DNA from: an uncultured Bacteroidia bacterium
Lineage (GTDB): Bacteria; Bacteroidota; Bacteroidia; Bacteroidales; UBA932
Direction of reading: 5' to 3'
Assembly: GCA_902801885.1 (NCBI GenBank)
Contig: CADCJX010000008.1
Coordinates: 62,001-126,000, forward strand
Length of the DNA stretch: 64,000 bases
A program made the position numbers and the translations under genes. Shown here one piece after another: positions 3,046-17,225 of the stretch; positions within the stretch are counted from its first letter, which is position 1, and each line of letters opens with the position of its first letter. The notes below the pieces were generated by a model. It made no database searches, was not told the origin of the DNA, and saw only the letters and a program-made list of their open reading frames with translations.

Positions 3046-3074
<29 letters not shown>

Positions 3075-4707
3075 CGGATTCAAGGAGGCGCTTGTACCAG
3101 GGCCTCCTTGACCATTCCTCGAGTGTGAGTTCGCGGCATTTCTCCAGGTCCTTCTCGAAGATAGCCTTGTTCATTAGGGCTGCCTCCTCATCGTAGATGT
3201 AGGTGTTGATCTCGTAGTTTATTCCGAAACTGCGGGCGTCCATGTTGGCGCTTCCGATGCTGGAGAGGTAGTCGTCACAGACGAAGGTCTTGGAGTGGAT
3301 GAATTCTCCCTGGCGCAGGAATATCCTCACTCCTGCTCCCAGAATCTCTTCGTAATATGCCCTGTTGGCCGGCCTGGCGATGAAATTGTCGGCGGCTTCG
3401 GGGAGCATAAGGCGTATGTCTACCCCTGTCAGGGCAGCAATCTTCATGGCGTCGAGCACGGGCTCTGGTGGGACGAAATATGGGGTCTGGAACCAGATGT
3501 ACCTCTTTGCATGGTTGATCGCCCATTCGTAGCTGTACAGGAGCATCGGCAGTGGCAGGTCCGGCTCGTCCGGCACAATCTGCATCAGTTTGCTGCGCAA
3601 AACGTCTACCCCCCTGCACCCCCGAGGGGGACTGAGGGGCGTACCCCTCAGACTCCCTGAGTCGCTATGCTCCGAGTCATTGGAACGACCGTCCGCTACC
3701 ACTCTGGCTGGCGAGACCACTGCCACCCTCGGCACGTTAAGAGGGGGGACCGGAGCGGAGCGCAGCGTAGCGAGCGGTGGGGCCGAGCGTAGCGAGGCGG
3801 TCGAGCCGCCAGAGGTGGTAGCGGATGATGGTAACTCTTTTGCCATCGGGTAGTATTCGAGCATGGGACGGTCGATGGTTCCGCCGCCGGTGAGCCATGA
3901 ATCCATGAAGGCGTACTGGAGTGATGCGACAGCTTTGCCGGTGAGGCGCATGTGAGTGTCTCTCCAATGCTCGAAATAATGGTCGTTGATATTCATCCCC
4001 CCGGTGTAGCCGATCTTCCCGTCGATTACGACTATCTTACGGTGGTTGCGGTAGTTGAGTGTGGTGACCAAGTCGAACAGGTGCGCCCTTGGATTCGTGA
4101 ACCGGACGACCTCGACTCCCGCCTCCCTCATGTCGTCATAGTACTTGGAACTGATTGGGAAATTGGCGATGTTCTCGTTGATGAACCTGACCTTCACTCC
4201 CTCCCTGGCTTTCTGCATGAGGAGCTCCTTTATGGCCCTGCTGCCCTTGTCATTCCCGAAATGGAAATATTCCATATGGATGCTCTCCCTTGCCTGGAGG
4301 ATGTCCTGGGAAAGCAGTTCGAACTTGCGTTTCCCTTCGGTTATGATCTCGACGTCGTTGCCGGCAGTTACGGAAGGGTAAGCTCCGCGGCCCATCATTT
4401 CAGCCAGCGGACGGAAATCCTCCCGTACAAGGGCCTCCGTGTCATGACCGAAAAGTATCCGGTTAAGGTCCTCATTCGTTTCCTTTTCGAAGATGTCCTT
4501 GTACTTCTGGTGCCTCCGGTTGAAGATCCAGTGGTGCCGGTAGTTGATACCGAACATGAAGTACAGCAGGATTCCGAAGAGGGGAATGGCAGCGATGATC
4601 AGCAACCATGCGAATTTCCTTCCTGAATCACCGTTATCGACGAGGATGACGACCACCACGGTGAGGATAAGGAGGACGTAGAGTATGGTCACTATCGTCT
4701 GCAGCAT
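3046..4707 (-). CDS. cls: cardiolipin synthase with an in-frame repeat insertion
   Basis: A membrane phospholipase D-family enzyme that condenses phosphatidylglycerol into cardiolipin. Two N-terminal membrane segments lie within residues 1-55. Two HKD catalytic motifs follow: NHRKIVVIDGKIGYTGG near residue 220 and HSKTFVCDDYLSSIGSANMD near residue 475. The protein has 553 residues, longer than the usual 470-500. The excess is a low-complexity stretch at about residues 292-370, rich in Ser, Arg and Pro, between the two catalytic halves. That stretch is encoded by repeat DNA and also contains PPLNVPRVAVV, seen in the E2 gene at 11943. The frame stays open through it. The start is one base downstream of the miaB stop, so the two form an operon. 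Confidence 0.93.
3611..3663. repeat. cluster of short hairpins in the cls insertion
   Basis: Three consecutive short palindromes lie beside the coding repeat: ccccc-ga-ggggg at 3619-3630, ctgagggg-cgta-cccctcag at 3632-3651, and gactc-cct-gagtc at 3651-3663. All are inside the cls coding sequence and belong to the stretch that looks inserted between the two HKD halves. There is no counterpart in the E2 copy, so this is a second module of a composite insertion or older flanking repeat DNA. Confidence 0.7.
3693..3824. repeat. palindromic coding repeat, copy in cls
   Basis: The element is bounded by inverted arms: ccgctaccactctggc at 3693-3708, and its complement with one extra base at 3808-3824. 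Inside, bases 3716-3760 match 12305-12349 of the E2 gene, in opposite orientation on the window, at 44 of 45 positions. The next roughly 38 bases also match, less well. The cls reading frame passes through unbroken and yields PPLNVPRVAVV. The match and arms are seen directly; mobility is inference. Confidence 0.85.
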
Positions 4708-9913: not shown

Positions 9914-9957
9914 AGTTTTAATATGTTTAGATTCTGCGTCGATTCTTCGTCGGGCTC

Positions 9958-10007
9958 CGCCCTTCTCAGAATGACATTATTTCGCCCTTCTCAGAATGAC
10001 ATTATTT
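9958..10007. repeat. 25-base tandem repeat, REP-like
   Basis: Two exact copies of a 25-base unit (cgcccttctcagaatgacat followed by tattt) lie at 9958-9982 and 9983-10007. The preceding attcttcgtcgggctccgcc has the look of a dispersed intergenic repeat. The second copy supplies the stop codon of the transketolase C-terminal gene (tta at 10002-10004). Confidence 0.85.
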
Positions 10008-11942: not shown

Positions 11943-13325
11943 ATGGCACAAGTCGTTATAATGCCCAAACAGGGGCAGTCAGTAGAAAGTTGCATTGTAA
12001 CAGAATTCAAGAAGAAGGTCGGCGACAAGGTCTCCGTAGGAGACATCCTTTTCAGCTATGAGACTGACAAGGCTTCGTTCGAGGAGGAATCCAAGTTCGA
12101 GGGTACTGTCCTGGCTTGCTTTTTCAATGATAATGACGAGATTCCTTGCCTTGAGAACGTGATGGTGATCGGTGAGCCGGGAGAGTCTTTCGAGGAGTTC
12201 GCTCCCGGTGGCGCCTCTTCAGCAAGTGCTGCCGGCGCGGCTGTAGAGGATGCTTCCTCCGGCACCGTCTCGCTCCGCTCGACCCCACCTGTCGCTCCGC
12301 AAGGCTCCGCTCCGGCCCCCCCTCTTAACGTGCCGAGGGTGGCAGTGGTGCCTGGAGGAACATCCTCCACAGCCGCTTCACCTCGTGCCAAACGTCTTGC
12401 TGCCGAGAAGGGCATCAATACTTCGCTCATAGCCGGCTCAGGCCCGGGAGGACGCGTCATCGAAAGGGATGTGATCGCAGCCGCTGCCTCACCTCTTAGC
12501 GGCCTTGCCAAGGCAATGATGGCAGAAGGAGGCCTTCAGGCTCCCGCTGCCGGTTCTGGAATAGGAGGCATGGTCAGGGGAAGTGACCTTCGCCAGGCCT
12601 CTGCAGAAGCTGAAACTGCCTCCGCAGAGTTCACGGTCGAGAAGATGTCCAACATGCGTAAGCTCATAGCCAAGAGCATGTACAATTCCCTCCAGAATTC
12701 CGCCCAGTTAACTCACATGCTCGGTGCAGATGCAAGGAAGATCCAGGCCCTTCGCAAGAAGGCCAAGAAGGCTCTCGAAGAAGGCCGTATCGACGCTAAT
12801 GTCACCATCAACGATTTCGTCTGCTATGCCGTCATCAAGGCTCTCCAGAAGTTCCCGAAGGTCAATTCACATTGCCTTGGAGATTCCATGAGAATTTTCC
12901 AGACCGTCAACCTCGGTTGTGCTGTGGACACTGAGCGCGGACTGATGGTACCGTGCATCAAGCATGCGGAGACCCTGAGCATAACCGAACTCAGCAAGGC
13001 TCTCAAGCAGGTAGCAGACGACTGCCGCAAAGGCAGCATCAATCCTGACCTGCTGTCATCCGAAGCCGCTTCATTTACGGTTTCCAATCTCGGCGGCTTT
13101 GGCGTTGAGTGGTTCACTCCGGTTATCAACCTGCCTCAGAGTGGAATCCTGGGAGTAGGCACAATCGTTCCCCGTCCGAAGGATCTCGGATCCGGTGTCT
13201 ATGCCTTCGTGCCCTATCTCGGACTTTCCCTTACTTACGATCACAGGGCCCTGGACGGAGGTGAGGCAACGAGGTTCCTCAAGCAGGTTGCGACAGAGAT
13301 CGAGAACCTCGAAATTGATTTTTAG
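11943..13325 (+). CDS. 2-oxoacid dehydrogenase E2, dihydrolipoamide acyltransferase
   Basis: The E2 core of a 2-oxoacid dehydrogenase complex, which moves acyl groups from E1 to CoA on a lipoyl arm. The lipoyl domain covers about residues 1-78, with the lipoylation site ETDKASFE at Lys43. A Ser/Ala/Pro linker follows; residues about 102-142 are encoded by the palindromic repeat also found in cls. An E1/E3-binding domain lies at about 146-180 (SPRAKRLAAEKGI, GSGPGGRVIERDV). A second, weaker copy lies at about 183-218 (GSGIGGMVRGSDL). The catalytic domain ends with YDHRALDGGEATRF. The substrate cannot be told from E2 alone: pyruvate, acetoin or branched-chain oxoacids are all possible. Confidence 0.92.
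   Translation: MAQVVIMPKQGQSVESCIVTEFKKKVGDKVSVGDILFSYETDKASFEEESKFEGTVLACFFNDNDEIPCLENVMVIGEPGESFEEFAPGGASSASAAGAAVEDASSGTVSLRSTPPVAPQGSAPAPPLNVPRVAVVPGGTSSTAASPRAKRLAAEKGINTSLIAGSGPGGRVIERDVIAAAASPLSGLAKAMMAEGGLQAPAAGSGIGGMVRGSDLRQASAEAETASAEFTVEKMSNMRKLIAKSMYNSLQNSAQLTHMLGADARKIQALRKKAKKALEEGRIDANVTINDFVCYAVIKALQKFPKVNSHCLGDSMRIFQTVNLGCAVDTERGLMVPCIKHAETLSITELSKALKQVADDCRKGSINPDLLSSEAASFTVSNLGGFGVEWFTPVINLPQSGILGVGTIVPRPKDLGSGVYAFVPYLGLSLTYDHRALDGGEATRFLKQVATEIENLEIDF
12246..12367. repeat. palindromic coding repeat, copy in E2 gene
   Basis: The inverted arms are 12246-12265 (gaggatg-c-ttcctcc-ggcac) and 12348-12367, whose complement reads gaggatg-ttcctcc-a-ggcac; all but two bulged bases pair. 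The body includes 12305-12349, which matches the cls copy at 44 of 45 positions. The arms do not resemble those of the cls copy. The insert lies in the flexible linker after the lipoyl domain and keeps the frame. Confidence 0.85.
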
Positions 13326-14741: not shown

Positions 14742-17225
14742 ATGCCTAAAGCACTTTACATAGATCCCGAAGTCACCCTGCGTCCTCAGGAGCATGAACT
14801 CAAGCTCCCTTCAATCCCGGTGATGAAGTACAACAAGACCGTCAAGGAAGAAATCGAGAGCGGCCGTTTCTCCAAGGAAGACCTTCTCCGCATTTTCCGT
14901 GACATGTCCTATATCCGCGAGTTTGAGACTATGCTCAATCTCGTGAAGACTACCGGAGGCTACAATGGCGTTCCCTACAACAACCCGGGTCCCGCCCATC
15001 TTTCAGCGGGCCAGGAGGCTGCCGCAGTCGGTATGGCCTATGCACTTGACACTGATGACTTCATATTCGGAAGTCACCGTTCCCACGGTGAGATCCTCGC
15101 AAAGGGTCTTCGCTCGATCCAGATCCTTCCTGATGAAGAATTGAAGAAGGTCATGGACGAGTTCTGGGACGGAGCAACCGTGGCGGTCGCCAAGAAAGCA
15201 TATTCAGGAAACGACACCAAGGAACTCGGCATCCGTTTCCTCCTTTACGGAGCGATGGCTGAGATTTTCGCCCGCACCACAGGTTTCAACAAGGGACTCG
15301 GTGGTTCGATGCACACCTTCTTCACTCCTTTCGGTATCTATCCGAACAACGCCATCGTCGGCGGAAGCGGTTCGATAGCTGTGGGTGCAGCCCTTTACAA
15401 GAAAGTCAACAGGAAGAAAGGTATCGTTGTCGCCAATCTCGGTGACGGTGCCATGGCCCGCGGCCCTGTCCTCGAGGGCATGACCTTCGCTTCCATGGAC
15501 CAGTTCAACACCCTCTGGGAAGGTGACATGAAGGGCGGCCTGCCCGTCCTCTTCAATGTCATGGACAACCAGTACGCCATGGGTGGCCAGACCAAGGGCG
15601 AAACTATGGGCTACACCTTCCCCGCACGTCTCGGTGCAGGATTCAAGGCTGATGCCATGGCTGCTGAAAGGGTCGACGGTTACAATCCTCTCGCAGTCAT
15701 CGACGCGTTCTACCGTAAAAAGGCCTACCTTCTCGAGAAGAAGGGACCTGCCCTTCTTGATGTCGTCACCTACCGTTACAGCGGCCATTCTCCTTCCGAC
15801 CAGAGTTCATATCGTACAAAGGAAGAGATCGAGGCTTGGGAGAAGGAAGACTGCATCGTGGCTTTCGGCAAGAAGCTCATCGAGGCCGGAGTGGCTGACC
15901 AGGCTGCCCTTGACGCAATCCGCGCCGAGGTCAATGCCAATATCTTCGAGTGCTACAAGCTCGCGATAGATGAAGAAGTCTCTCCGAGAATGGATCTCGT
16001 AAAGCAGGATGAGCTTTTGGGTGAGATGATGTTCTCCAACCAGAGCATCGACTCTCTTTCCGACGCCAAGCCCGACGTGCTTATGCCTCTTGAGGACAAC
16101 CCCAGGGTCAAGCAGATCGCAGGAAAGGAACGTTTCTGGCTCGACAAGGACGGCAAACCCGTCAGCAGCATGAAGTCCTACAACTTCCGTGACGGTGTCT
16201 TCGAGGCTATCGTCGACCGTTTCTACAAGGATGCTTCCCTCATTGCCTACGGTGAAGAGAACCGTGAGTGGGGCGGTGCCTTCGCAGTCTATCGCGGACT
16301 GACGGAGGCCATCCCTTACCACCGTCTGTTCAATTCTCCTATCGCCGAGGCGGCAATCATCGGAACTGCAATCGGTTACGCCATGTGCGGCGGCCGCGTT
16401 ATCCCCGAGATCATGTATTGCGACTTCCTAGGATGCTGCGGAGACGAGATCTTCAACCAGCTCCCGAAGTGGCAGGCCATGTCCGGAAATATCCTTAAGA
16501 TGCCTGTAGTGGTCAGGGTCTCTGTCGGTTCAAAGTACGGTGCACAGCACAGCCAGGACTGGACCAGCCTCTGCACCCATATCCCCGGACTGAAGGTCTG
16601 CTTCCCTGCTACTCCTTACGACGCCAAGGGTCTGATGAACGCCGCTCTCCAGGGTACCGACCCTGTGATCTTCTTCGAGAGCCAACGCCTTTACGGCATC
16701 GGCGAGAAGTTCCACGAAGGCGGAGTGCCCGAGGGTTATTACGAGATTCCTATCGGCGAGCCTGATGTCAAGAGGACCGGAAAGGATGTCACCATCCTGA
16801 CCATAGGTGCCACCCTGTACAGGGCTCTCGAGGCTGCCGACATCCTTAAGGAGAAATATGGAATGGAAGCCGAGGTCATCGATGCCCGCTCACTCGTTCC
16901 GTTCAACTACGACAAGGTGATCGAGTCCGTCAAGAAGACCGGCAGGATCATCATCGCCGGCGATGCCTGCGCCCGCGGATCCTACCTCAACGACCTCGCG
17001 GCCAACATCTCCGAGATGGCATTCGACTATCTGGATGCAGCCCCCGTGGTGCTCGGTTCCCGCAACTGGATCACCCCGTGCCATGAGCTTGAGGAGGCCT
17101 TCTTCCCCCAGCCGTCCTGGTTCCTCGATGCGATCCACGAGAAGATCGTTCCTCTCAAGGATTATGTTCCCACCAGCAACCAGACCGTCGCCCAGATGCG
17201 CCTGCACGCACGTAAGGGTATTTAA
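14742..17225 (+). CDS. 2-oxoacid dehydrogenase E1, alpha and beta fused
   Basis: The thiamine diphosphate-dependent decarboxylase of the complex. Its first half (about residues 1-430) is E1 alpha, with the thiamine motif GDGAMARGPVLEG ending at NVMDNQYAMGGQ, and the phosphorylation-loop-like YRYSGHSPSDQSSYRT. The second half (about 490-827) is E1 beta (FNSPIAEAAIIGTAIGYA, VRVSVGSKYGAQHSQDW). At 827 residues it is longer than the roughly 650-700 common for fused E1 proteins; the extra length lies partly in the N-terminus and the alpha-beta linker. A pyruvate, acetoin or branched-chain substrate cannot be separated from sequence alone. Confidence 0.93.
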   Translation: MPKALYIDPEVTLRPQEHELKLPSIPVMKYNKTVKEEIESGRFSKEDLLRIFRDMSYIREFETMLNLVKTTGGYNGVPYNNPGPAHLSAGQEAAAVGMAYALDTDDFIFGSHRSHGEILAKGLRSIQILPDEELKKVMDEFWDGATVAVAKKAYSGNDTKELGIRFLLYGAMAEIFARTTGFNKGLGGSMHTFFTPFGIYPNNAIVGGSGSIAVGAALYKKVNRKKGIVVANLGDGAMARGPVLEGMTFASMDQFNTLWEGDMKGGLPVLFNVMDNQYAMGGQTKGETMGYTFPARLGAGFKADAMAAERVDGYNPLAVIDAFYRKKAYLLEKKGPALLDVVTYRYSGHSPSDQSSYRTKEEIEAWEKEDCIVAFGKKLIEAGVADQAALDAIRAEVNANIFECYKLAIDEEVSPRMDLVKQDELLGEMMFSNQSIDSLSDAKPDVLMPLEDNPRVKQIAGKERFWLDKDGKPVSSMKSYNFRDGVFEAIVDRFYKDASLIAYGEENREWGGAFAVYRGLTEAIPYHRLFNSPIAEAAIIGTAIGYAMCGGRVIPEIMYCDFLGCCGDEIFNQLPKWQAMSGNILKMPVVVRVSVGSKYGAQHSQDWTSLCTHIPGLKVCFPATPYDAKGLMNAALQGTDPVIFFESQRLYGIGEKFHEGGVPEGYYEIPIGEPDVKRTGKDVTILTIGATLYRALEAADILKEKYGMEAEVIDARSLVPFNYDKVIESVKKTGRIIIAGDACARGSYLNDLAANISEMAFDYLDAAPVVLGSRNWITPCHELEEAFFPQPSWFLDAIHEKIVPLKDYVPTSNQTVAQMRLHARKGI

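Follow-up and report, generated by a model that had tools for sequence, protein, structure and literature searches.

In-frame hairpin elements, probably mobile and non-autonomous, in unrelated genes of one genus of Bacteroidales

The window analysed here, a stretch of 64,000 nucleotides from an uncultured Bacteroidia bacterium, holds two unrelated genes whose products share a peptide. One, on the minus strand at 3046–4707, encodes a cardiolipin synthase of 553 aa (cls; PF13091, PF00614 and PF13396, TIGR04265); the other, on the plus strand at 11943–13325, encodes a dihydrolipoamide acyltransferase of 460 aa (E2; PF00198, PF02817 and PF00364). An earlier note on this DNA had reported a match of 44/45 positions between them, and comparison by eye bears this out: the minus strand of 3716–3760 differs from 12305–12349 at one base. 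The inner 32 bases are identical in the two copies, against an expectation of 0.00 in shuffled windows. Both genes encode PPLNVPRVAVV in frame, as had been claimed, and in cls, where the frame is stop-free across the insert, the additional sequence does lie between the catalytic halves, with the PLD motif (residues 218–244) before it and the PLDc_2 stretch (residues 396–520) after it. Each copy contributes approximately 47–49 extra residues. Near the E2 gene, at 14742–17225, an 827-aa protein matches pyruvate dehydrogenase E1 alpha and beta models, below curated cut-offs, and is apparently an alpha/beta E1 subunit fusion.

Each copy comprises a core flanked by inverted arms, and either could fold into a stem-loop. 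The cls insert had been placed at 3693–3824, which is the right location but too narrow: with its arms the copy occupies 3685–3832 (148 nt), its structured strand being the plus strand. An outer arm (3685–3702) pairs at 83% with its partner (3815–3832) by inverted-repeat search, and local alignment pairs 24/27 positions of the arm adjoining the core (locus L001). Between them, the core and inner arms (3703–3814) include a hairpin, H1, of sequence GCC(ACCCTC)GGC at 3722–3733, which covaries across the family, with GAGGGGGG downstream as a possible pseudoknot partner. Fused to this copy within cls, at approximately 3605–3674, is an unrelated repeat belonging to a second family, TGCACCCCC..AGGGGGACTGAGGGG, which has separate BLAST matches at L005, L008, L020 and L028. 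The E2 copy, at 12237–12376 by inverted-repeat search (140 nt), has its structured strand on the minus strand, opposite to the gene; its core (12267–12346) lies between arms at 12237–12266 and 12347–12376, which pair at 80% over 30 nt ungapped, or at 28/30 positions when gaps are allowed (locus L006).

These are two of many copies. Querying the window's own genome (2.46 Mb) by BLAST with the cls insert gave 29 matches at E≤1, 4/29 of them belonging to the second family and the weakest (E 0.96) being of doubtful value; a covariance model, R1, recovered 24 copies in the same genome. A genome-wide search for the shared block, which the earlier note had proposed, thus places it in many unrelated genes and in intergenic sites beyond cls and E2, and it is not confined to these two genes through a known domain. 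A strict core motif (GCCACCCTCGGC, 2–6 nt, AGAGGGRGG) was present in 18/61 genomes, comprising 18/37 of the window's own genus and 0/24 from other families of the order, and the same motif read backwards, as a control, was found in 0 of these 61 genomes. With R1 at E≤0.01, 1–33 copies per genome were detected in 55/120 genomes, all from the window's genus (55/73 genus genomes; 1/48 genera with matches). Outside the genus there were R1 matches in 0/47 genomes, and in none of 47 other genera, under filters that lose weak matches. The genus is presumably GTDB Cryptobacteroides. A motif scan of named genomes returned at least 117 stretches, of which the 80 titles listed were Bacteroidales or Bacteroidia, many of them ruminant-derived, or one Candidatus Coprenecus; the exact motif had 0 matches in IMG/VR. 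Because copies were collected by the exact motif, degenerate copies are under-sampled; orthologous copies were counted separately. The element is G+C-rich (mean 66% over 104 nt). At one locus (L017/L025, G000:C15:29355–29601), two elements from different subfamilies lie in opposite orientation within a single periplasmic binding protein gene.

Judged by homology of both flanks, 123/240 copies (orthologous copies counted separately) lie inside genes. The reading frame is kept in 119/123 of these and lost in 4/123, as measured against a protein database that includes homologues themselves carrying the insert. A stop in the bridging frame was flagged in 5/119 in-frame copies, at least one flag (L209) being false, since the frame there is open. 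In addition, 95/164 copies lie within open frames of ≥200 aa, some perhaps spurious. Hosts in the window's own genome include cls, E2, GH3, MatE, IspH, RsmF, MiaA, a class-III aminotransferase, a RecQ-type helicase, aspartate-semialdehyde dehydrogenase and a periplasmic binding protein, and degenerate copies are found there in DnaX and FtsK. MiaA, IspH, RsmF and aspartate-semialdehyde dehydrogenase are central proteins. Given that frame is retained, the inserts in genes are likely to be translated.

The same sites can be filled, empty or inverted in related genomes. Comparison of cls among relatives found homologues without the peptide: the site is occupied in G000, in G096 by an inverted copy and in G073 by one with different arms, holds apparent remnants in G301 and G236, and is empty in G170, G107, G117 and G020. 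In the E2 linker the core has minus orientation in five genomes and plus orientation in four; a further four have it as a hybrid with another repeat, and the linker is empty in G117, G200, G020, G008, G014, G012 and G002. For miaA, 24 loci were taken from a search of 300 genomes (206 of them with a match), and 23/24 were readable at the site; depending on the locus, a single linker contains the core in plus orientation, the core in minus orientation, nothing, or a third repeat. Among 14 genomes ispH is filled in five, empty in eight and occupied by a remnant in one. Orientation differs between relatives at four sites (E2, miaA, cls and L043/L109), the clearest in-place inversion being L043/L109, where the arms are collinear and the core alone is inverted; at the other three sites the difference could reflect separate insertions. 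From this presence and absence, together with the distribution of copies, we infer that the element is mobile. Because relatives show sites filled, empty or inverted, both the arrival of such palindromes and the acceptance by proteins of approximately 40–50 foreign residues can be tested.

Across copies, a conserved core of approximately 60–100 nt is enclosed by a stem that reaches approximately 33 nt out from the core. Within the core, H1 has the layout X Y T N GCC (ACCCTC) GGC N' .. Y' X' and covaries strongly: the base beside GCC/GGC (N/N') is paired in 236/244 copies (shuffle mean 126, maximum 148), and the XY/Y'X' dinucleotide is Watson-Crick in 222/230 (shuffle mean 50, maximum 67; 14 copies without a readable dinucleotide excluded), with eight pair types. 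The significance given by shuffling is overstated, since the copies share relatives; eight pair types would be hard to get without an underlying structure. RNAalifold, applied to a MAFFT alignment (A1; 42/63 diverse cores chosen from 157 short cores of 227), returned as its sole helix the invariant CCCTC/GAGGG pairing, with zero covariation. It saw no covariation because the other A1 columns are misregistered, and H1 covariation was therefore counted directly, as above.

The H1 loop CCCTC is predicted to pair with the downstream GAGGG as a pseudoknot. This prediction is weakly tested: the CCCTC/GAGGG pairing is invariant by construction of the search motif, and a looser scan of the partner found three CGT/ACG and one CGC/GCG double changes, of unverified independence, and one more complementary match of doubtful kinship, against one CGT/GCG and a few other mismatched pairs. 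Two further hairpins with variable stems are predicted, on equally light testing, to follow H1 and the pseudoknot, the loop of the last being mostly GAA, GCA or GTA by eye. Searches of 15 loci against Rfam gave no family at gathering score and three sub-threshold miRNA matches only. The term ‘palindromic repeat’ in the earlier note needs correction: because arms and core behave differently, a simple palindrome is rejected in favour of a structured core set within site-specific inverted arms.

The arms of a copy match each other: the pairing score averaged 15.9 within copies versus 6.6 between arms of different copies, and 96/164 copies exceeded the 99.9th percentile of permuted arm pairs, a permuted set that includes orthologous copies. 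In 159/164 the arm directly adjoins the core, with a median length of 29 nt and 92% identity. Left arms mostly show no kinship between non-orthologous copies. Within subfamilies, approximately 20 nt of core-proximal arm are shared (CCAGTCTGGATGGCGAGACC and a few others), and the border between this and the site-specific arm is sharp. By eye, the inner 20 nt pair imperfectly, the consensus having two bulges and two mismatches, and the outer 8–14 nt are site-specific, with at least 8 nt matching in 9/10 extended copies read on both sides; L157 is the exception, and L334 and L339 have a common outer arm. The outer arm ends at a median of 33 nt from the core both in 20 extended copies (10–90% range 29–35) and in 208 others (28–42). 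Left arms are T-poor and G-rich at 17–24 nt out and pyrimidine-rich at 7–12 nt out. Direct repeats of ≥6 nt around the arms of 239 copies were in no clear excess (6.7%, compared with 5.4% permuted).

One explanation is that the long stem would be completed at each insertion, one arm being copied from the other by fold-back, which would account for arms that are specific to their site, self-complementary and constant in reach. Because individual sites give evidence both ways, we hold this origin of the arms tentatively, with the balance a little against it. In its favour are the sharp border between inner and outer arm, the fixed reach, the miaA pairs and a site, site C, at which G066 has a single copy of the host sequence GGTGGCGACC and G213 has two around the element, the second inverted (9/10 bases), the flanks of the two genomes being 100 and 98.5% identical in protein. 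Site C could equally have arisen by precise loss via a 4-nt repeat. At site B, by contrast, G017 is filled, with arms of approximately 32 nt, neither of which is present in the empty G213, G066 and G321, where one base separates two stop codons. Similarly, site D is filled in G186 and empty but nearly identical in G213, which lacks the G186 arms there. Here, however, G213 has probably undergone precise loss between 7-nt direct repeats, because G017 and G321 share the filled state and arms, and several of the ‘empty’ sites may be excision products. Site D, which is intergenic (window approximately 9940–10005; L407, L408, L409, L413, L414 and L415), is a hot spot: the arms of G236 and G321 are wholly different while the flanks are 97–98% identical, and in G000 a TTCTCAGAATGACA repeat stands in place of the element.

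Other routes to the arms were considered. Pure inverted target duplication fits miaA (G114 versus G170, and G033 versus G176) and site C, but does not fit ispH, GH3 or sites B and D. A pre-existing hairpin may have been the target at site A, given the terminator-like hairpin of G114, and is not needed elsewhere. Rapid drift of the arms with self-correction is disfavoured. It could account for the different arms at site D and for the GH3 site, at which several compensated base changes separate the arms of G236 from those of G017; however, among 14 same-orientation orthologous pairs 20–27 of 27 left-arm bases were kept, and arms were about as conserved as flanks (0.87 vs 0.88). In this count, from which shifted or inverted inserts were excluded, the ungapped right arm was out of register in 3/14 pairs (5–9 of 27). 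To return to fold-back, a fuller version, possible but doubtful, has the element carrying nothing beyond the folded core and perhaps some inner arm, the outer arms being built anew at each landing site by fold-back with a fixed reach of approximately 33 nt, and the core then flipping between the arms. If true, this would be a mode of insertion without shared terminal repeats and without target duplication.

Overall, these observations are probably best explained by a hairpin element that is mobile but non-autonomous and has spread through one genus of gut-type Bacteroidales. Such an element would move as a folded single strand, most likely ssDNA, and on balance we favour a single-strand intermediate, with cutting and joining of the strand by an enzyme supplied in trans. 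Insertions in genes would survive only where a protein loop tolerates extra in-frame residues, and the core would later be flipped or removed, either through inversion between its arms or through slippage at short direct repeats. The covarying fold provides a concrete substrate for finding the enzyme.

HUH/Y1 proteins are candidate movers, and a distinct reading makes the element a REP/REPIN-type repeat mobilised by the genus's approximately 300-aa HUH (Y1_Tnp) proteins. Members of the Y1 superfamily process ssDNA with secondary structures (PMC6006769). Y1 matches occur in 17/18 motif-positive versus 10/19 motif-negative genus genomes (27/37 in all; Fisher p=0.008), and Y1 presence follows R1 copy number (14/15 genomes with ≥10 copies, 10/14 with 1–9 and 3/8 with 0; trend p=0.004). 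This correlation could, however, be produced by shared ancestry and genome completeness, and one of the 18 motif-positive genomes (70% complete) has no Y1 match. Moreover, the core was present in the 250-nt flanks of 0/19 inspected Y1 genes, the sole core in 20 Y1 loci lying inside an rsmA gene near one Y1 gene (L372); several Y1 genes have their own, different matching hairpins on both sides (e.g. L370, L374, L378, L386, L387 and L388); and no constant tetranucleotide tag stands beside H1, the dinucleotide there taking eight forms. We regard both a Y1/HUH enzyme as the mover and mobilisation as a REP/REPIN-type repeat as possible but doubtful. The ∼300-aa HUH/Y1 transposase-like proteins at L370–L372 and L374–L389 are diverse and have weak Pfam scores; those of G000 have frames at approximately G000:C9:23535–24413 and C2:67864–68820.

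It is unlikely that the element is instead of retro type, an RNA copy being reverse-transcribed at a nick, its end snapping back and copying host DNA. Both the covarying fold and the site-specific inverted arms would suit such a route, but covariation cannot tell RNA from ssDNA, and host-derived arms are not seen at sites B and D. Less probable by a good way is removal of the insert from mRNA in the manner of an intron, or its skipping by ribosomes, so that proteins lack it: a closed structured fold with a long stem does resemble self-contained RNA elements, and the hosts are conserved enzymes, yet removal would not need frame, which 119/123 gene copies keep, and the 15 loci searched yielded no Rfam family at gathering score. 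We give very little credence to an immobile origin, whether as an old shared peptide domain or as copies spread by recombination between genes; this would account for the same peptide in E2 and cls, but not for copies that occupy unrelated genes as well as intergenic sites, with both orientations and different frames represented, nor for homologues without the insert and arms that are mostly site-specific. Finally, among the matches listed, named ones are mostly labelled MAG, but an artefact of metagenome-bin assembly is scarcely credible when 24 exact-motif copies occur in G016, an assembly of approximately eight contigs, and orthologous sites are coherent across many species.

The best-known in-frame ‘selfish’ palindromes are those of Rickettsia and Wolbachia, in work reportedly due to Ogata, Claverie and colleagues. 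The earlier note had likened the present repeat to the Rickettsia palindromic elements (RPEs), and in-frame copies in genes, many unrelated hosts and empty homologous sites support the likeness; that this is an RPE-like mobile element we hold with little doubt. RPEs and the Wolbachia elements are described as structured palindromes of approximately 105–150 bp, in many copies, both in frame within unrelated conserved genes and intergenic (PMC2229807, PMC10969869). The present element is likewise a multi-copy structured element of roughly 100–150 bp, found in frame in unrelated genes and between genes. It differs in belonging to Bacteroidales rather than Rickettsia or Wolbachia, in being G+C-rich, and in the strong H1 covariation of its core; its arms mostly differ from site to site, whereas RPEs are tabulated with 12-bp terminal inverted repeats (PMC2229807). 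The evidence supports an RPE-like in-frame element in an unrelated bacterial group, with a different architecture. It works as RPEs are described to do, and membership is not claimed.

The further claim that no such element had been described for Bacteroidota was too strong as worded: CGTC-tagged REPs, REPs being 20–40 bp, are reported from Bacteroidetes among five phyla (PMC3733652). The claim stands to the extent that, in literature available in part, nothing of such size and kind was found, and a search for comparable Bacteroidota elements, or for ones with inverted target copies, gave no fitting report. Like REP, BIME and CGTC repeats with their RAYTs, the present element is a hairpin repeat that is sometimes intragenic, with HUH transposases in many of the same genomes. 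Intragenic REPs are reported in several species, the REP tag is GTAG or CGTC, and REPs can flank their own RAYT genes (PMC3733652). The present element, in contrast, has no fixed GTAG/CGTC tag (eight main dinucleotide forms) and no core beside 19 Y1 genes; identity with REPs is ruled out by the lack of a fixed tag and of a core beside inspected Y1 genes.

MITEs (Correia/NEMIS, ERIC, RUP) are also small, non-autonomous and dispersed, some of them intragenic, and most are described as having shared terminal repeats and target-site duplications (PMC2229807). Here the outer arms are mostly unique to each site, the inner arms are common only within subfamilies and direct repeats are in no clear excess; with neither shared terminal repeats nor target duplication, a standard MITE is ruled out. 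YPAL/RU-2 of Yersinia is not TA-flanked, has inverted repeats, inserts at or near dyad symmetry and makes target duplications of 3–26 bp (PMC2229807). The first three properties resemble those of the present element, but the Yersinia element duplicates its target and no duplication was seen here.

Other in-frame repeats occur close to the main element. The second family (TGCACCCCC..AGGGGGACTGAGGGG) has eight strict matches in the examined loci, all in open frames of ≥200 aa (window 3605–3674, L005, L008, L119, L152, L240 and L372 among them), and weaker copies at L020 and L028 that are not in a frame of ≥120 aa; in cls and rsmA it neighbours the main element. A third in-frame repeat (GGAGGCGCAGGGCCCCGAAGCC..) is present at the miaA linker (L216, L219, L220 and L222), partly nested in remnants of the main element. 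In the E2 linker of G096, G066, G186 and G073 (L247, L249, L255 and L256), a fourth (GGCCGCAAGGGGTTTGGGGG..) forms a fusion with the main element at one of its ends.
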